Source: Deltaproteobacteria bacterium (GTDB lineage Bacteria > Myxococcota_A > UBA9042 > DTJE01). From it: a DNA stretch of 64,000 nucleotides. The notes below the pieces were generated by a model. That model was given only the letters and a program-made list of their open reading frames with translations, had not been told where the DNA came from and did no database searches. The stretch's first letter is position 1, and each line of letters starts with the position of its first letter. A program made the position numbers and the translations under genes. This document shows, one piece after another, positions 7,447-21,931 of this stretch. The stretch covers positions 1 through 64,000 of the forward strand of contig JAKPOP010000003.1 in NCBI GenBank assembly GCA_029547805.1, read 5' to 3'.

Positions 7447-7491
7447 AGCCCGCGGCATCGAGGGAGCAATCCCACCGATGCCGCGGGCTTT
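7447..7491 (+). terminator. Rho-independent terminator of tRNA-Pro
   Basis: A perfect 14-bp inverted repeat, AGCCCGCGGCATCG (7447-7460) and CGATGCCGCGGGCT (7476-7489), with a 15-base loop ends in a short T run. It lies 9 bp after the tRNA. Confidence 0.85.
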
Positions 7492-7600
7492 CGTGCATTC
7501 AGGGCCTGCGTCGTCACGTCGCTCAAATCGGTCCAGGGGCATGCCCGTCGCGAGAAGGCAGAGTGCTAGAATCCCATTCAGCAGGCCCGGAGGAAGGCCC

Positions 7601-10600
7601 ATGATCTGGGGTTCACGCGTGACATTTCTGCCTGTCTTCCTGGCGCTGCTGGCGACCACCACCCCATCCTGCGACGGCCCGGTCGGCCCGACAGGAGACC
7701 TTGCAGGCGGGGAGGTCCTCGCCGACGCGACGTCCGAACTGCCGCTTCCCGATGGCGCCATCCCGGTGGTGACAGGCTCCCTGACTGCAACGGAGTCGGC
7801 CTGGATCGAGGCTGGTGCCGCCTGGTCTCGGGCCGCGTCGGCAGCCACCCAGATGGTCGTGGCGGTGAACGGACTGGTCCTGTGCAACGTGGACCAGTAT
7901 GGGCAATCCCCCCGGCAGGAGCGCCTGGACGCCGCCCGGAAGTCCCTGGAGGTGCTGGATGCCGCGGGGACGCGCCTGGCGACGGCCGCGGACCATCTGG
8001 AGGGGGCGGTTGCCGGAGCGATCCTGCAGGACGGCAGTGTCCCACAATCCCTCTCATCCCTGCCCTTCGCGCTGGCCGTCCGAGACGGGAAGGTCGTTGA
8101 ACGCCTGCGCGACCTGGCGGACGCCTGCAAGGCAGAAAGTGCCCGGGTGAAGACCCTGCTGGATCCCCTGGACGTGGTCTCGATGAGCAATGCCGCCCTC
8201 GACCCTGTGGTGACTGCCCTGTCCGCCGACCCGGCCCTGGCCGTGGCCGCCGGGCCGGTGGTGGCCACTGCGGGGTCGGTGACCCGGACGGTCCTGCCTA
8301 TGCCGGCGCCGGCCGCGCTGGCCGTGGAAGGGGCATCCCAGGTGGCCGCGTTTGTCGGGGAGGTCCCGGTGGTGGCCGGCATCGCGGACGCCGACGGTAC
8401 CGCGGGGGCCGTGCCACTGGCTGCCGAAGCCCCCCGGCCGCTGGTCTGGCGCGCCGACGGCCTGGCGCCGACAGCCGCCGACCGCGCCGTGGCCGCAGAT
8501 CCCGCAGAGTCCGACCCCATGGAAGGCGTCCTGGCGACCCTGTCCTTCCCGCACCCCGCGGCGGCCGTGCTGGACACGCGCCCGCTGCAGGGCGCCGACG
8601 CCTGCTGGACGGGTCAGGGCGCGACGGAGGCGGCCTGCTCGCTGGCCGCAACGGGCCTGCTGCCGCCGGGCACCTACGTGGATCGGGAAAACGGCGGCGC
8701 CCTGGTCACCGTGGAAGGCATCTCCCTGTCGGTGGCCCGGCGCATCGGCGCGGGACTGGATGTCGATGACGTGGTCGTCACCCTGCCAGCCGATCCGGAT
8801 GCGGCCCCACCGACAATCAGCGGCATGTCCCCGACCGAGGGCCCCGTCGGCACGGCCATCACGATCTCCGGCAGCGGCTTCGGGACGGACCCGGCCGCCG
8901 TGCGGGTCGAATTCAACTGCGGCCAGTGGGCCATCGTGCCCCCTGCCATGGTGTCGGACGTCTCCCTGACGGCCGTCTTCCCGCCCCGTCCCACCCTGGA
9001 CATCGCAGGACCATGGTGCACCTACAATCCCTCACGCTCCCAGGCCTGCGGCGTGTCGGTCCGGGTCCAGGGCCGTCCCGCCTGGGGCGGCTACTTCACG
9101 CTGATCGCCATGCCTCCTTGCCCGCCGTCGCTGCAGGGGGGAATCCTTCCCGGGACCGCCAGCGTGGGCGACCCGGTCAACGTCTACGGCCGAGGCTTCT
9201 CACCGAACCCGTCGCAGAACGAGGCCCGCTTCGGCGGCGGCGTCGTGGCCACGGCCTCCAAGGTCGATCCGGACCCCTACGAGCCTGAACTGGCCCGCGT
9301 GACCTTCGTCGTGCCCGAGGGCGCCGTCACCGGCGACGTGTCCTTCCGGAATACCGAGGGCATTGGCGAATGGTCGTCGTCCACCTCGCCCCTCACGATC
9401 GTCCCGCCCACCGTGCCAGTGCTACTGCCGGGTCCCTCCGCAGGGGGCCTGCATGTCCCCTGTCTGGCGATGGAGGCGGGCCGCCCGACGCAGCAGAACT
9501 GGTGCCACGACTTTTCGTGGGTCCTCGGCCAGAAGGATGTGGGGCTCCTGGACTGGGACAGCCCGCGGTCGTCCATCGGCCTGGCCGTGCTGGTGGACAC
9601 ACGGCTGGGATCTGCCCGCCTGCCTGCCCTGCCCCTTCCGGATGGTCGCCTGCTCCTGTCCCGCCTGGACGACGCCTTCAGCATCCTGGCCGGCCTCAGG
9701 CCCGGCGACACGGTGACCTTCCGGGCCCAGGGGCGCGAACGGGCGAACCTCTTCGTGCGCACCTCAGAACCCCTGGTCCTGCCGGTGGTCTCGCGTTACG
9801 AGCCAGGCACCTTCCAGACCTTCGAGTCCAGCGTGTGGACCTACGGATGGGATCCCCCGCCCCTGGAGGTCGCTCTGGGGGACGCGCTGGTCCTGACACC
9901 GTCGGACGTCAACGACACCCTGACGGCCCCCGGGCTGTGGGAGGGCACCCTCTCCTTCGGGCAGGGGACTCCCGAGTTCCCAGGCTGGGAGGACTTCTCG
10001 TACCTGCGGGGCATCCGGGTCGTGATGGACCACCCCGGTACCTTCACGGTGACCAACGGGAAGGGGGTCTCGCGAGTCGTGGAGGTGCGCCGGGAGGGTG
10101 CCGAGGGGGGCGGCACCCTGGCGTTCTACGATTTCGACAAGTACATCAACGTCCCGGTGCCCCATCTGGCTCAGGACGGCGGCTTTCTGGGTTGCGGTGG
10201 GGTCCGCGTCGAGATCCCCCCCGGAGCACTGCCGCTGCATGACGGGGACGGTGGCTACATCGTCTGGTGCCAACGTACTCCGCTGGCCTCGATGGGCCAT
10301 CCGGAACTGACCGCGGGAGGCCTTCAGACCCAGGTCTGGTTCGATCCCGAGCCGCCGGCCCTGCTCAAGCCCGTCACGATCACGATCCCCTACGACCCCG
10401 AGGCACGCGGATCGGACGCGGAACTGGGGCTCTACGACCCGGCCAGCGGCCTCTACGCGAACCTTCCGGCCGAAACCGTCGGCGACCGCCTGCGCCTGGT
10501 CCTGCCCGCCGGGACCTACGGCACCGCCCCGGCCGCTCCGACCGGCGCGATCCGGCTCCTTGCCTCCTCTCCATTCCCCCTCCGGGACCTCTCGTTGAAC

Positions 10601-12004
10601 CAGGTCCTCGGGGCCCTGGTGGCCGCGGCCTACAAGTCCCAGAAGGGGGTCCTGAAGGACGACGTGCGGCAGTTGCAGGTGAACTACGTCGCCACGCCAG
10701 GGGAGGCCTCCCATGTCTCCGATTCATACGCCGGCGAGGTCCTGGCAGCGGCCCAGGCCGCCTGGGACTTCATGACCAGAGAGGGATGGCCGAAGCCCGA
10801 CGGGTGGTTCGGGGGCTGGATCGTGCTGACCATCACGGACATGGGGCCGCTCACCCAGGCGGCAGAGGGTTCCACGACGAAGGGCGTCTTCGGCCAGCCA
10901 TGGGTCACGATCAACAGTCAGTGCGCATCGGGTACCCAGGTGGCCACCACCACCGCCCACGAGATGGGTCACGTCTTCCAGCGGCAGGTGAACAACGTCT
11001 TCAGCCTGAAGTGGATCGACGAGGCCGCCGCCCAGTGGACCGCCGTGGGCGCCCTGGGATCGGGTGCGGACATCAGTGGGGACATCACCTGGGCCTCCGG
11101 CTTCCCCTCAGTCACCCTGCCCCCCACCTTTGGCAGCGGCTGGTCGCTTTCCGGAGGCTACAGCCAGCAGCAGGCCTACGCCGCTGGCGCCTTCACCGTC
11201 TGGATGGAGTCCGTGTCCCGGGGCAGCGTGCTGCGCGTCTATGAGCAGTTGCGGGATTCCTACCTGGCCTACGAGGACGCCCGAGGAACCCTGGCGGCCG
11301 CCGCGGGCAGGACCGTCCAGGACCTGATCGTCGAATTCGGGAAGGCCTACTGGGGGCAGACCCTGGACCTGGTGAAGGACCTGCGCCTGGGTGCCGCCCC
11401 CTATCGATCCTGGGTGGATTGGACCGGCATGGCCGTGGGGGATCGGCGTCCGCCACTTTCCAGCCTGCGCTGGGACGTGGACCTGGGCGTCAAGGATGCC
11501 GAGATGGCGGGCCGGGACCTGGTCGTGCGCTCTTCGGGCCTGGGCGCCGGACAACTGGCCTGCATTTACCGGGATGCGGTCCCCTGCACGGACGCCGCTC
11601 CCCGCATGGAGCAGGTCCGTCTGCTGGACAAGGACCATCCCGCCGGTCTGCTGGGTCCCCACGGGATGGGCACGCGATGTTACCGCGTGCTGATCCTGAA
11701 CTTCTCCAGCACCGAGACCGCGGACGTCACGGTCACGCTGTCCACCCCGCAGGTGACGGGCGTGTCGCCCTCGCAGGGGAAGAACGACGGGGGCTACTCC
11801 ATCACCTTGTCGGGCCACGGCTTTGGCGACGTTCCCGGATCGGTGCACCTGGCCGGCTTCAGGCTGAACGTCACGGCCTGGTCCGACCAATCCATCACCG
11901 CCACGATGTTCAACGCGGGCACGATGACCGGCAACGTGGACCTGAAGGTCTTGACGACCGAGGGGGCCTGGTCCAACGCGGCGACCTTCACGCTGGTGGA
12001 TTGA
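7601..12004 (+). CDS. Large lipoprotein with IPT/TIG, ZU5-like and zincin peptidase modules
   Basis: The start at 7601 is chosen because GGAGGAAGG precedes it and because it opens a signal peptide ending in the lipobox LLATTTPSC; an in-frame ATG at 7478 lies inside the tRNA terminator. The 1467-residue protein has IPT/TIG-like segments near residue 403 (SGMSPTEGPVGTAITISGSG) and near 505, and at the extreme C-terminus (TGVSPSQGKNDGG). A ZU5-like stretch is at about 861-975. A gluzincin-type motif HEMGH at about residue 1120 is followed by WIDEAAAQW, which could supply the third zinc ligand. It is probably a surface-anchored metallopeptidase or peptidase-like adhesin. The substrate is unknown, and the full set of catalytic residues is not proven. 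Confidence 0.85.
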   Translation: MIWGSRVTFLPVFLALLATTTPSCDGPVGPTGDLAGGEVLADATSELPLPDGAIPVVTGSLTATESAWIEAGAAWSRAASAATQMVVAVNGLVLCNVDQYGQSPRQERLDAARKSLEVLDAAGTRLATAADHLEGAVAGAILQDGSVPQSLSSLPFALAVRDGKVVERLRDLADACKAESARVKTLLDPLDVVSMSNAALDPVVTALSADPALAVAAGPVVATAGSVTRTVLPMPAPAALAVEGASQVAAFVGEVPVVAGIADADGTAGAVPLAAEAPRPLVWRADGLAPTAADRAVAADPAESDPMEGVLATLSFPHPAAAVLDTRPLQGADACWTGQGATEAACSLAATGLLPPGTYVDRENGGALVTVEGISLSVARRIGAGLDVDDVVVTLPADPDAAPPTISGMSPTEGPVGTAITISGSGFGTDPAAVRVEFNCGQWAIVPPAMVSDVSLTAVFPPRPTLDIAGPWCTYNPSRSQACGVSVRVQGRPAWGGYFTLIAMPPCPPSLQGGILPGTASVGDPVNVYGRGFSPNPSQNEARFGGGVVATASKVDPDPYEPELARVTFVVPEGAVTGDVSFRNTEGIGEWSSSTSPLTIVPPTVPVLLPGPSAGGLHVPCLAMEAGRPTQQNWCHDFSWVLGQKDVGLLDWDSPRSSIGLAVLVDTRLGSARLPALPLPDGRLLLSRLDDAFSILAGLRPGDTVTFRAQGRERANLFVRTSEPLVLPVVSRYEPGTFQTFESSVWTYGWDPPPLEVALGDALVLTPSDVNDTLTAPGLWEGTLSFGQGTPEFPGWEDFSYLRGIRVVMDHPGTFTVTNGKGVSRVVEVRREGAEGGGTLAFYDFDKYINVPVPHLAQDGGFLGCGGVRVEIPPGALPLHDGDGGYIVWCQRTPLASMGHPELTAGGLQTQVWFDPEPPALLKPVTITIPYDPEARGSDAELGLYDPASGLYANLPAETVGDRLRLVLPAGTYGTAPAAPTGAIRLLASSPFPLRDLSLNQVLGALVAAAYKSQKGVLKDDVRQLQVNYVATPGEASHVSDSYAGEVLAAAQAAWDFMTREGWPKPDGWFGGWIVLTITDMGPLTQAAEGSTTKGVFGQPWVTINSQCASGTQVATTTAHEMGHVFQRQVNNVFSLKWIDEAAAQWTAVGALGSGADISGDITWASGFPSVTLPPTFGSGWSLSGGYSQQQAYAAGAFTVWMESVSRGSVLRVYEQLRDSYLAYEDARGTLAAAAGRTVQDLIVEFGKAYWGQTLDLVKDLRLGAAPYRSWVDWTGMAVGDRRPPLSSLRWDVDLGVKDAEMAGRDLVVRSSGLGAGQLACIYRDAVPCTDAAPRMEQVRLLDKDHPAGLLGPHGMGTRCYRVLILNFSSTETADVTVTLSTPQVTGVSPSQGKNDGGYSITLSGHGFGDVPGSVHLAGFRLNVTAWSDQSITATMFNAGTMTGNVDLKVLTTEGAWSNAATFTLVD

Positions 12005-12081: not shown

Positions 12082-12152
12082 TAGCGACTTGACATGCGCT
12101 CTACCCTTCGGAAAAAATCCGCGGAGGGGTCTGTTTCGTGTATGGAAGATAC
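12082..12152 (+). repeat. Promoter-like repeat, copy 1
   Basis: TTGACA at 12089-12094 is followed after 17 bases by an A-rich -10 region at 12112-12118, then by the shared block CTGTTTCGTG-ATGGAAG. It is the most diverged of three copies (others at 14948-15031 and, inverted, 15681-15765). It lies directly before the ion channel gene, and GGAGGGG within it is positioned as that gene's ribosome site. Confidence 0.7.
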
Positions 12153-13211
12153 GATTTTCACTCGATGGTCTTGCTATGGTTCCTGCTGATCATGTTGTGT
12201 GCGCCTGCTCGGGCCACGCCGCCTGGTGCGCAGAACGGGGTCGGCGAGGCGACGGTGCGACGTACGCTCCAAGTCGGGATAACGCTGACGGCCCTTCGAG
12301 ACGTGGACGATGTCCACGGTACGTTCTTCGCCGATTTCTACCTGTCCGCTTATTGGCAGGAGGCGGGTTGTGCGACCCTGGCAGGGAGCGCCGAGAGTCG
12401 GATAGTCGATGTGGCGGAGGCGTGGAAGGCCGTCCAGAATCCGTACATCGAGTTCGTCAACTCCTACGGGCGGGAGGAGACCCGCCTTCAGGGCAACGAT
12501 GAAATTCTTGTCCATTCGAACGGGATGTGCACCTACACGTTCCGGTGCTCATGAGTCTTCAGGTCCCCCCTGGACCTGCGCCGGTTCCCCTTTGATCGTC
12601 AGAGGTTCGGCATTGCCATCGAGTCCGCTGTGTTCGGCGTGTCCCGTATCCGCCTCGTTCCCGGCAGGTACAACGACTTGAGCGACCTGAACCGGAAGTT
12701 GCTCGACCTTCCGGACTGGAGGATCGTGGGCGTTGGCTTGGAGGAAGGGATCGGGGAATACCCGTACCTGGTGGACGAGGAGACCTTGTTCTCGCGCGTG
12801 ACCCTGACGGTGGACGTGGAGCGCCGTCGCGGCTACTACATCTGGAAGTTCCTGGTTCCCCTGGTGTTGATCGTACTCCTGTCGTGGGTCGTATTTTGGA
12901 TCGGCTCGGGGGAGCTCGAGTCACAGATGCAGGTATCGATCAAGTGCGTCCTGTCGGTCATCGCGTTCAACTTCGTCATTTCCGAACAGCTTCCGCGAAC
13001 CGGCTACCTGACCGTGCTGGATTATTGGGTACTTCTGTCATACATCTTCGTGGCGGCCGGCACCTTCGAGAACGTGGTGGCACACCGCCTCGTGCGTGCG
13101 GGACGCGAAGGCGCGGCGGACCGGGTCGATCACTGGTCGAGGGTGTTGTTCCCAGCCACCTACGTCCTGCTGAACGCCCTTGTCTTTGTCCACTCTCTGC
13201 TGCTGTCGTAA
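12138..13211 (+). pseudogene. Pentameric ligand-gated ion channel with in-frame TGA
   Basis: One continuous frame from a GTG at 12138 (GGAGGGG 8 nt upstream) encodes a prokaryotic Cys-loop-type channel (GLIC/ELIC family) of about 357 codons, interrupted by a single TGA at 12552-12554 (codon 139). Before the stop are a signal peptide and the N-terminal beta-sandwich. Directly after it comes SPLDLRRFPFDRQ, the conserved segment of the Cys-loop region. Four membrane helices occupy about residues 233-357, including KFLVPLVLIVLLSWVVFWI and SEQLPRTGYLTVLDYW. The family forms homopentameric cation or anion channels. The expected residue at the stop is probably Gly (GGA to TGA). A sequencing error is possible. 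Alternatively, two truncated products would be made, neither a working channel. Confidence 0.88.
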
Positions 13212-13261
13212 CGCGGTCCATCAACCCCCTGCCCGGCTCCTGGGGGACGTCACCGTTTCGC

Positions 13262-13341
13262 CTGTCAAGGGAGTCCGATTTAAAGAAGTTAGGGGACACG
13301 ATCTGTTACGAGCCTGTCCATGCCCAAGAGCCACGGAGGGG
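13262..13341 (+). repeat. Left copy of ~80-bp inverted repeat bracketing the accessory segment
   Basis: The sequence from TGTCAAGGGA through AAGTTAGGGGACACG and GAGCCTGTCCATGCCC to AGAGCC recurs in inverted orientation at 21932-22011 with only scattered differences and a small gap. The two copies are 8.6 kb apart and bracket the densest set of decayed genes. Confidence 0.85.
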
Positions 13342-13422
13342 TACAAACCGGGTCGATCCGTTACAGGTCAGACCGGTCAGATGGGTGACACGTTGAGGCG
13401 TCGACTGGAGGAGGAGCCAGCG

Positions 13423-14575
13423 ATGCCATGGAGGCATCGAAGCGTCCTGGAAGCACGGCTGGAGTTCGTGAATCTGGTGAAGAAAGGGGGAAGGAGCGTT
13501 GCGGAGGCGGCACGGGAGTGGGGGGTGAGCCGTCAGACGGCGCACCGGTGGCTGAAGCGGTACGACCTGGAGGGCGAGGAGGGCTTGCGGGACCGGTCGA
13601 AGGCGCCGCGGGTCATTCCGCACAAGACACCCGATGAGATGGAGGAGCGGGTGCTGCAGGTTCGGCGGCAGTACCCGACGTGGGGGGCCGAGGAAGATCC
13701 GGGTCTCGCGGATCTGTCGGGAGCCTGGTCTGACGTGGCCTGCGGCCAGCACGATGGGCGAGATTCTGGAGCGTGCGGGGATGGTGATTCCGCGGAGGAC
13801 GCATCGGAGGACGCCCGCCTCGACCACGCCGGGGAGTCATGCGAGCGGCCCGAACGACGTCTGGCCCGTGGACTTCAAGGGGCAGTTCCGGCTGGGCAAT
13901 GGCCGGTATTGTGACCCCCTGACGGTAACGGACCATTTCAGTCGGATGCTTCTGGGCTGCCATGCCCTGGAGACGACCCGGGCTCAGGATGTTCGCTCGT
14001 GTCTTGAGGAGGTGTTCACAACCGACGGAGTGCCCCGGGCTCTGCGGTCGGACCATGGGTCTCCCTTCGCGAGTCATGGAGTTCTGGGGTTGAGTTCACT
14101 GGGCGCCTGGTGGATGACCCTGGGCTTGCGACATGAGCGCATGGCGGTCGGCCATCCCGAGCAGAATGGCCACCACGAGCGCATGCACCGGACCTTGAAG
14201 CAGGAAACGACCCGGCCTCCGGCCCATCCGCTGGGCGGCCAGCAGGAACGATTCCACGCGTTCATGACCTGCTTCAACGAACAGCGGCCCCACCAGGCCA
14301 TCGACATGCAGACGCCGGCCAGCATCCACGAGCCGAGTCCACGTCCGTACCGAGAGGCCGAGCCCTACGACGACTCCCGTGTTGACGACGTCCGCGTCGT
14401 CGCGCCCGGCGGGACCATTTCGGTTTCTGCGATCCACGGTCGGAATCACCGCCGCCCTTGCCGGCCAGGAGGTCGGACGGATTGAACTCGACGACGCCGT
14501 CTGGCTCGTCCAGCGGACAGGACCTGGGCCTGTTCGACGTGGGTGAGACCTCCATCTCACCCCTTGAGACGCATC
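13423..14575 (+). pseudogene. IS481-family transposase, multiply frameshifted
   Basis: A start at 13423 after GGAGGAGGAG opens the typical helix-turn-helix N-terminus (VAEAAREWGVSRQTAHRWLK). Near 13690 an extra base shifts the frame, and the protein continues as RKIRVSRICREPGLTWPAAS. The DDE integrase core is intact in that frame: WPVDFKG, LRSDHGSPF and GHPEQNGHHERMHRTLK. Near 14435 a second shift leads to ALAGQEVGRIELDDAVWLVQ, and near 14520 a third leads to LGLFDVGETSISPL, the usual C-terminus. IS481 transposases are normally one frame, so this copy is inactive unless several sequence errors are assumed. Confidence 0.88.
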
Positions 14576-14581
14576 ACCGCG

Positions 14582-14609
14582 AGGCAGCCCCCGCATGGGG
14601 GGGCTGCCT
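14582..14609 (+). terminator. Hairpin downstream of the IS481-like transposase
   Basis: AGGCAGCCCCC (14582-14592) and GGGGGCTGCCT (14599-14609) form a perfect 11-bp stem with a six-base loop. No T run follows, so it may be a rho-dependent or bidirectional terminator. Confidence 0.55.
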
Positions 14610-14680
14610 GCCCACCCAGAAGGAACAGGTGTCACGGATATACACGGTCTGTTTTGTCGCCCATGTTCCCGATTGCACAC

Positions 14681-14915
14681 GAACCCGCCCCTTACAGGCC
14701 CCTCCCGCTACCGGCCGCCATGGCGACGAGGGACCACAACCGCTCGTCACCACCGGCGCCCACCCCACCGCCGAACGGCACCAGTCCGCACGCCTTCTTC
14801 CGTACCCGAGTGACTCCTCCCCAAGACCGCATCCGCCGACCCCTTGACGCCCCTCGAACCCCCGACCGATAACCGCCCTGGAGGCGGAAAACCGCCATGA
14901 AGATTCCTACACGCA
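14681..14915 (+). mobile_element. IS91-like element, 3' end remnant (copy A)
   Basis: This segment is nearly identical to the tails at 17685-17914 and 21637-21863. It ends with GGCGG-AAAA-CCGCC (14883-14896), a small terminal hairpin of the kind found near IS91-family ends, followed by ATGAAGATTC. It carries none of the transposase, only the non-coding tail. Confidence 0.7.
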
Positions 14916-14947
14916 TCAAACCCCTCATTTTCCAGCCCTTCCCTTGC

Positions 14948-15031
14948 GTCGAAAAAACTTGTTGACATGCTCTGTACCCCTGGGCACAATCGACCAGCAG
15001 GCCTGTTTCGTGGATGGAAGTTCCTGTTGGC
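14948..15031 (+). repeat. Promoter-like repeat, copy 2 (inverted pair with copy 3)
   Basis: TTGACA (14962-14967), a 17-base spacer and CACAAT (14985-14990) form a strong sigma70-type promoter, followed by CTGTTTCGTGGATGGAAG. Copy 3 repeats almost the whole unit in opposite orientation at 15681-15765, so both point inward across the AT-rich gene. The only frame started here ends after about ten codons. Confidence 0.8.
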
Positions 15032-15041
15032 CTAGTTAGGC

Positions 15042-15392
15042 TCACGAGAGTTGTTTAACAAATTCACATTCTTCTTCGAACTTCGAGACCTCTTGTGTTG
15101 ATGCACCTAAAATTTGAAGCCACTTTTCCTCTCTATTCTCCATCATTTCGCACAAGACCTTTATATATCCTGGTAAAACTCCAGCCGAGTTATGAGACAG
15201 AACTCGTGTTTTGTAGTAGGCAGATTTATATTGGTCCCTGCATGCTGGGATTGATGCCAAAGCCTTTCTCATCGCCTCGACTTCAATCAAGAGTTCAACT
15301 ACGATTCGTGATAGTACGGAGCTCAATTCTTTCGGATCATTCGAGGTCAAGAGTTTCCAACCAAGGCTTTCGACAAATGATTTCTCGTCCAT
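15042..15392 (-). CDS. Small AT-rich protein of unknown function
   Basis: This 116-residue protein has an excellent ribosome site (TAGGAGGA, 8 nt before the ATG). It is hydrophilic and probably mostly helical, with the C-terminal stretch EEKWLQILGASTQEVSKFEE. No family is recognised. The gene and its surroundings (about 15.03-15.68 kb) are far richer in A+T than the rest of the window, a sign of recent transfer. It lies between the inverted promoter-like repeats. Copy 3 points toward it from about 290 bp upstream and could drive it. Confidence 0.7.
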   Translation of the reverse strand: MDEKSFVESLGWKLLTSNDPKELSSVLSRIVVELLIEVEAMRKALASIPACRDQYKSAYYKTRVLSHNSAGVLPGYIKVLCEMMENREEKWLQILGASTQEVSKFEEECEFVKQLS

Positions 15393-15680
15393 TTTCGAGT
15401 CCTCCTATAAGAATAGTCTTACTAAAACGGTGGATCTCGGAAATAATCGTCCACCAACTGCCCCCTAATAAAAATCATATTTTATTATCTTTGCTTGTCA
15501 TGACCATCAACCAAAAGTCCCTGTAAATATTTAATCAAGTTTCCTCATATATAGTTTAGTTGGCTATCTGTTCCCAATCTTTTCCTCTGGCAATTCTTTG
15601 AAAGGTACAATAGATATCCCGCATTGTCTCTAAGCCAGCCTTTGATTATTCCCTTCGCAGTTATCTTTGTTTGGGCAGAT

Positions 15681-15765
15681 GCCAATAGGAGCTTCCATCC
15701 ACGAAACAGTCCTGTTGACAGATTTTGCCCAGGGGTAGAGAGCATGTCAAGAGTTTGTTTTCGTC
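15681..15765 (-). repeat. Promoter-like repeat, copy 3
   Basis: Read on the minus strand, TTGACA (15750-15745), 17 bases, then CAAAAT (15727-15722), followed by CTGTTTCGTGGATGGAAG. It is the inverted partner of copy 2, with about four fifths of positions identical over ~80 bp. Confidence 0.8.
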
Positions 15766-17254: not shown

Positions 17255-17914
17255 GGAGGTCTCACCCGGTACCATGGGGTCCTCGCGAACAGGTCGAAGC
17301 TCCGCCTCTTCCTTCCGGCGCCCCGTCACCCCATCGTCCGGCTCACCAACCGTCATGCCGAGACCTCACCACCTCGGCTGGGCCCAGTTGCTCCGCCACG
17401 TCCTCGACGTTGACGGGCTCAAGTGCCCCCGCTGCTCCACGCCCATGGCCGTCCTCGCGTTCTTGACCGACCCCGCCGTCATCAGGAGGATCCTCGCCCC
17501 CCTCAAGATGCCCTCCGCCGCCGCCACTCGCTCCCGCCAGGGGACCGGTCGACTTGGATGACCTGTTCTTCAACGAGGACGCCCATCGCACCGCCCAGTT
17601 CGCCGGCCCATTCCACGACCCCTGGCCCGACCAGACCCCGGGTCACGCCCGCTCCCCGCCCTGACCTCCCGGCGGCCCCGAACCCGCCCCTTACAGGCCC
17701 CTCCCGCCACCGGCCGCCATGGCGACGAGGGACCACAACCGCTCGTCACCACCGGCACCCACCCCACCGCCGAACGGCACCAGCCCGCACGCCTTCTTCC
17801 GTACCCGAGTGATTCCTTCCCAAGACCGCATCCGCCGACCCCTTGAACGCCCCTCGAACCCCCGACCTGTAACCGCCCTGGAGGCGGAAAACCGCCATGA
17901 AGATTCGTACACGC
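17255..17914 (+). mobile_element. IS91-like element, 3' part (copy B)
   Basis: It contains transposase remnants TRYHGVLANRSKLRLFLP and, after a frame change, HLGWAQLLRHVLDVDGLKC with PRCSTPMAVLAFLTDP, the usual C-terminal region of IS91-type Y2 transposases. The common non-coding tail follows, with terminal hairpin GGCGG-AAAA-CCGCC at 17883-17896. The large central part of the transposase is missing, so it cannot move by itself. Confidence 0.8.
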
Positions 17915-17946
17915 CCCAACGGTGCATCCAACACGGGAGAATGACG

Positions 17947-21079: not shown

Positions 21080-21168
21080 GCGGGCCCCTGCGCCATGAGG
21101 ATCCGATGACATGGCGAGTCGACTGGCGTGATCAACGCCACCCGAGGCTGACGAAGACGTGCCCCTTA

Positions 21169-21863
21169 CCAGAGCCTCACCCGGTACCATGGGGTCCTCG
21201 CGAACAGGTCGAGGCTCCGCCCCTTCCTCCCGGCGCCCCCTGGGGGCGGCTCGCGGGTCGGCACGGTTGAAGAGCCGCCGGTCACCCCATTGGCCGGCTC
21301 ACCAACCGTCATGCCGCGACCTCGCCACCTCGGCTGGGCCCCGTTGCTCCGCCATGTCCTCGACGTTGACGGGCTCAAGTGCCCCCCCTGCTCCACGCCC
21401 ATGGCCGTCCTCGCGTTCTTGACCGACCCCGCCATCATCAGGAGGACCATCGACCACCTCAAGCGGCCCTCCGCCCCGCCGCCGCTCGCTCCCGCCAGGG
21501 GACCGGTCGAGTTGAATGACCTGTTCTTCAACGAGGACGCCCATCGCACCGCCCAGTTCGCCGACCCCTTCCACAACCCCTGGCCCGACCAGACCCCGGG
21601 TCACGCCCGCTCCCCGCCCTGCACCCCCGGCGGCCCCGAACCCGCCCCTTACAGGCCCCTCGCGCCACCGTCCGCCATGGCGACGAGGGACCACAACCGC
21701 TCGTCACCACCGGCACCCACCCCACCGCCGAACGGCACCAGTCCGCACGCCTTCTTCCGCACCCGAGTGACTCCTTCCCATGACCGCATCCGCCGACCCC
21801 TTGACGCCCCTCGAACCCCCGACCGATCACCGCGCTTGAGGTGGAAAACCGCCATGAAGATTC
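21169..21863 (+). mobile_element. IS91-like element, 3' part (copy C)
   Basis: One uninterrupted frame from about 21173 reads SLTRYHGVLANRSRLRPFLP, then HLGWAPLLRHVLDVDGLKC and LTDPAIIRRTIDHLKRP. This is a less damaged version of the transposase C-terminus seen in copy B. The tail then matches copies A and B and ends with GGTGG-AAAA-CCGCC near 21840. The N-terminal catalytic tyrosine domain is absent. Confidence 0.8.
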
Positions 21864-21931
21864 CTCGACTCCCTCCCTCAGGGTCATGACCCCAAGTTTG
21901 TGTCCAAGAAAACCCGATGCAGGTCAGGCGA

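Follow-up and report, generated by a model that had tools for sequence, protein, structure and literature searches.

A promoter-like repeat in a deltaproteobacterial genome is very probably the right terminus of an ISCR/IS91-like rolling-circle clade

The window, that is the whole 64,000-nucleotide stretch of Deltaproteobacteria bacterium DNA analysed here, contains three copies of a short repeat, two on the forward strand (c1 and c2) and one inverted (c3), together with a ligand-gated ion channel gene, a small AT-rich orphan gene and remnants of insertion elements (Table 1). The three copies lie where the earlier note had reported them, and their number is far above shuffle expectation. The 18-mers TTGACATGCNCTNTACCC and CTGTTTCGTGNATGGAAG have three matches each with 0 mismatches; in 100 dinucleotide shuffles, with up to 3 mismatches allowed, the mean number of matches was 0.16 and 0.07, respectively, and no shuffle got to three. 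The earlier note had proposed to search the full genome and its relatives for the repeat and to map what follows each copy. In the genome of the organism (4.08 Mb in 32 contigs) this search yielded a fourth copy, c4, at C27:27531-27598. A 16-base pattern run over the contigs matched at 56 scattered places, about the chance level, and was discarded.

Table 1. Features of the window, with the best limits of the repeat copies
Feature	Position	Strand	Evidence
c1, solo right end (oriIS)	12088..12155	+	R1 model, 44.9 bits; alignments
Ligand-gated ion channel gene after c1	12138..13211	+	Neur_chan_memb 6.6e-15, LGIC_1 2.1e-29
3′ remnant of ISCR-like element, second right-end type (TTGACGCCCCTCGAACCCCCGACCGATAACCGCCCTGGAGGCGGAAAACCGCCATGAAGATTCCTACACGC)	14680..14917	+	96% identical to 17679-17915
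c2, right end (oriIS)	14950..15031	+	R1 model, 61 bits
AT-rich orphan gene, 116 aa, AGGAGG ribosome site	15042..15392	-	ORF, downstream of the c3 promoter signature
c3, solo right end (oriIS), facing c2	15681..15763	-	R1 model, 61.8 bits
ISCR-like remnant	17261..17915	+	Transposase C-terminus 17261-17516, right end ~17840-17915
ISCR-like remnant	21161..21872	+	Transposase C-terminus 21161-21463, right end ~21800-21872

All three copies in the window carry a -35/-10 signature. The layout of c2 is TTGACA-N17-CACAAT followed by a box and the terminus GTTCCTGTTGGC, that of c3 is TTGACA-N17-CAAAAT with the terminus GCTCCTATTGGC. In c1, where the outward signature starts with TTGACA at 12089, the spacer is one base longer (TTGACA-N18-AAAAAT, or AAAAAA if a spacing of 17 is imposed) and the tail is degenerate; the claim that the -10 region always follows at exactly 17 bases thus stands for c2 and c3 and fails for c1. 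No more than ~70-85 bp is left of c1, c3 and c4, and none of the three has its own transposase remnant; upstream of c1 no such remnant was found within 2.5 kb. Copy c2 starts ~35 bp past another ISCR-like right end, which terminates at 14917. A degenerate transposase, IS481-like by appearance, occupies 13300-14640 of the window. A 117-bp piece of its 3′ part (85%) is also found immediately before c4, on another contig (L012:7415-7531).

In other genera of the window's bacterial family, a loose search found the box TTTCGTGGATGGAAGTTC well over the reversed-pattern control. A first profile, built from 14 copies, had confident matches in several genera, and a wider profile of 74 positions detected the unit in 12 of the family's 13 genomes and in none of the 39 genomes searched from the rest of the class. 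Among the genomes searched the clade is confined to this family. Thirty-one copies could be aligned in almost gapless register. In 19 non-redundant copies information content peaked in the box, was also high in the -35 (TTGAC) and -10 (AxAxTC) elements and low in the spacer, and dropped to background or near zero past +26, with positions numbered from where the box core begins. Within the end, positions +14 to +17 carry a conserved GTTC; past +26 the copies share no conserved target tetranucleotide (GAAC, CAAG and GTTC are the targets of the IS91/ISCR family). In several subfamilies (for example L166, L172, L239, L240 and window 14909-14917) the GTTC core precedes the octamer (C)TACACGC, in some with a one-base shift; the octamer may belong to the terminus or be a preferred target. 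The repeat matched no Rfam family, no conserved RNA structure was detected, and no DNA hairpin is common to all ends. As to the subterminal dyad symmetry of an IS91/ISCR oriIS, the hairpin GGCGGAAAACCGCC is present only in the end type found at 14.9 and 17.9 kb; among the other ends, L171 (z -2.0) alone folded more stably than its shuffles.

All-against-all comparison revealed that the similarity between copies stops abruptly at about +26, and that the DNA past that point is unrelated. In G011 two 616-bp copies are 98% identical and then diverge. Two contigs of G003 (C39 and C43) have exactly 141 bp in common, ending at +26, and then differ. In G008 the sequence common to four copies runs exactly to +18 and does not reach +26. 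Many copies are located within 350 bp of a contig start, with the start on the upstream side, as would be expected if a longer multi-copy element lay upstream and interrupted the assembly. Comparison of G001 with G008 did not yield an empty site: a gene at 7478-12004 is common to both, and nothing past that gene is shared. Nor was an empty site recovered from the relatives of G011, which share nuoN and differ in the other flank. Six contigs from G003, G009 and G010 (L154, L156, L158, L159, L160 and L200) begin at or close to a right end and break off within the transposase of another copy, the orientation being the same in every case. This pattern hints at arrays of direct repeats in which 2-6 kb separate one element from the next. 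At ~20-2430 of L163 (G007:C40) a stretch of 35% G+C directly follows a right end, and is in turn followed by an opposite-strand gene resembling, by reading, a reverse transcriptase; it is possibly a retroelement.

The DNA upstream of the ends connects them with a transposase. The upstream part of the G011 copies matches the window at 17.4 kb, a stretch that reads like the C-terminal part of a transposase of the IS91 type. The Y2_Tnp search of the family with Pfam identified a copy, L195 (G008:C43), in which a 602-aa transposase is still present. This protein has both the HUH/Y2 transposase domain (Y2_Tnp, 7.4e-20) and the IS91 zinc-binding domain (Zn_Tnp_IS91, 5.4e-18), both over the Pfam cut-offs. 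Its best NCBIfam matches, ISCR_clade_Ia (1.4e-82) and IS91 (3.6e-24), are under the curated cut-offs. The module ends ~290 bp past the transposase stop. With the L195 transposase as probe, a transposase fragment was found near seven ends (L195, L157, L154, two in L171 and two in the window), and at all seven the C-terminal part has the same orientation as the end and precedes it by ~200-410 bp. This is the arrangement of an oriIS past the 3′ end of the transposase gene. No left boundary (terIS) of a full-length copy was recovered.

The window itself holds remnants only. In addition to c1-c3 it has three further right ends of a more distantly related sister type, near 14841-14917, 17840-17915 and 21800-21872; the first of these (14841-14914) was matched by the R2 model with 25.8 bits. 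The two degenerate transposase C-termini listed in Table 1 were detected by tblastn with the L195 transposase (7e-19 for the first, 2e-21 for the second), and the element at 21 kb is 88% identical to 17262-17906. The stretch at ~17.4 kb had no Pfam match, being too short or too decayed. A Pfam search for Y2_Tnp found no match in the organism's own genome, and the elements therefore appear to be fossils there.

ISCR elements have been studied most as vehicles that move resistance genes in proteobacterial plasmids. The transposase of L195 belongs to the same family as those of ISCR1 (33% identity) and ISVsa3/ISCR2 (35%), and the likeness extends to the ends. The terminus TTCCTATAC is also found 221-224 bp past the transposase stops of ISCR1 and ISVsa3, where it occurred by chance in 24 and 8 of 20000 shuffles, respectively. 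The final bases TTCCTATACgC match the termini of both elements, and the ISVsa3 right end reads ...GGCGTTTATTCTTCCTATACG. In ISCR1 the shared terminus falls within the published 22-bp oriIS, GTGGTTTATACTTCCTATACCC (PMC13023784). Many copies end in GTTCCTAYACGC, like the IS91/ISCR oriIS ...TTCCTATACCC; in c1-c4 this terminal sequence has diverged. The R2 model did not recognise the ISCR1 and ISVsa3 ends as a whole, so the common part must be short, the terminal ~9-10 bases only.

Like ISCR1, the elements described here have a right end roughly 220 bp past the transposase stop, outward promoter sequences at oriIS and variable DNA beyond the terminus. They differ from ISCR1 in having a single promoter signature at a fixed place, with the -35 element ~44 bases before the core box, and a family-specific box, TTTCGTGGATGRAAGTTC; their copies are mostly degenerate, and a link to class 1 integrons was not seen. 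Taken together, the position of the repeat, its transposase and its terminal bases make it highly probable that it is the right terminus (oriIS) of an ISCR/IS91-like rolling-circle clade. What counts against this is that no left end, conserved target tetranucleotide or empty site was recovered, that the copies in G008 part at +18, that c1, c3 and c4 are so short, that the organism's own genome has no Y2_Tnp match, and that the likeness to the ISCR1 and ISVsa3 ends is limited to the last bases. The earlier note, which knew of no named element that fits, had recognised the kind of object correctly, namely the end of a mobile element with a built-in promoter: the sharp end, the transposase linkage and the multi-copy identity all agree with this, and it is the IS91/ISCR elements that fit.

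What the -35/-10 signature does was considered separately. It is conserved and points outward, and the hexamer consensus with its 17-base spacing fits sigma-70. In ISCR1 the oriIS promoters (POUT) are functional, and they increased downstream expression 13- to 15-fold in a reporter (PMC6218425); in the present family the promoters are known by their signature, from which we infer that the ends carry an active outward promoter. It is conceivable, though we consider it the weaker of two readings, that the same blocks within an oriIS are binding or strand-opening sites of the transposase and do not work as a promoter. In favour of this variant, the nearest downstream gene was in sense orientation in 20 and in antisense orientation in 13 of 33 copies (crude gene call), a strand bias that is not significant, and the more divergent copies L170, L171, L195 and L200 match the -35 element poorly. 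The sigma-70 fit and the proven ISCR1 promoters argue against this variant.

The same mapping bears on the view that the repeat is immobile and serves a regulon or a single gene family as a conserved promoter-leader, which might be suggested by the hexamers and their spacing being the best conserved positions outside the box. The earlier note had reasoned that a repeat found only before stable RNA or one gene family would be a plain conserved promoter. The genes that follow the copies are unrelated and on either strand, and the 20 sense and 13 antisense cases give no sign that the promoter generally drives one gene. The sharp end, the multi-copy identity, the assembly breaks just upstream and the linkage to transposase remnants also speak against a promoter-leader, and we regard it as extremely improbable. 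The more specific proposal that c1 drives the channel gene found no support either. Translation of that gene revealed a single in-frame TGA (12552-12554), which reflects either a pseudogene or a sequence error.

The arrangement of c2 and c3 invites yet another reading, in which they bound a single MITE-like unit or cassette of 0.8 kb as its terminal inverted repeats, and this unit carries the AT-rich gene with its promoter. The two copies are inverted and 84% complementary across 80 nt. The interval between them has 40% G+C and one gene, the orphan, which stops 11 bp short of the c2 terminus; it had no Pfam, NCBIfam or viral-contig relative, and its best PHROG match was non-significant (E 0.26). 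A TIR-bounded unit would show paired terminal inverted repeats around a recurring interior, with target duplications. Elsewhere the end occurs singly, with the transposase on the other side and unrelated DNA on the side that would be the interior, and a second pair of such ends was not seen in the organism's own genome. We therefore consider a MITE or cassette very unlikely. GTTAGGC, which follows c2, had also suggested an integron-like attC/attI site; this reading was dropped because the motif is absent after the other copies.

In the oriIS interpretation the two copies are indeed inverted and facing, as the earlier note described, and are not two ends of one element. Since c2 begins ~35 bp past an ISCR-like right end, its body side is the IS-rich stretch on the left; the body side of c3 lies to the right. 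The two copies are facing right ends of separate elements, whose bodies, present or former, are outside 15.03-15.68 kb, and the AT-rich gene is therefore flanking DNA. The c3 promoter signature points at this gene, which may thus be transcribed from c3. There is only a slim chance, in our estimate, that in this bacterial family the minimal ~75-bp ends have turned into independent mobile promoters which ISCR-like transposases move in trans, and that two facing ends form a new type of gene-capture unit around an AT-rich foreign gene.

The solo ends can be accounted for by what is known of the IS91 family. Transposition proceeds from oriIS to terIS, or to a chance stop, which leaves right-end pieces (PMC3189936). 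For IS801 of Pseudomonas syringae, a member of the IS91 family, one-ended transposition yielded right-end fragments of 229, 360 and 679 nt; most natural IS801 fragments were attributed to rearrangement (PMC3189936). The IS801 pieces were caught transposing and measure 229-679 nt, whereas the solo ends of the present family are down to ~70-85 nt long and are known from sequence. By the same route, an HUH transposase would nick at the right terminus and replicate leftwards through the element. If the left end were missed or lost, short right-end pieces would remain, which would explain why solo ends such as c1, c3 and c4 differ in the sequence upstream of them. Longer copies that later decayed would have the same outcome. 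Within the last ~75 bases there would be a sigma-70-like promoter directed outward over the terminus, and every insertion would then put a promoter beside the landing site.

The repeat is very probably a worn-down right end. As such it adds a new local branch to a known family and does not define a novel type of mobile unit. What looked like a promoter repeat without a name can now be recognised as the terminus of an element, and the 74-position profile can locate right ends of this ISCR-like clade even where the transposase has decayed. Relatives of ISCR that share this end design, outward promoter signature included, are present in draft genomes of one bacterial family.
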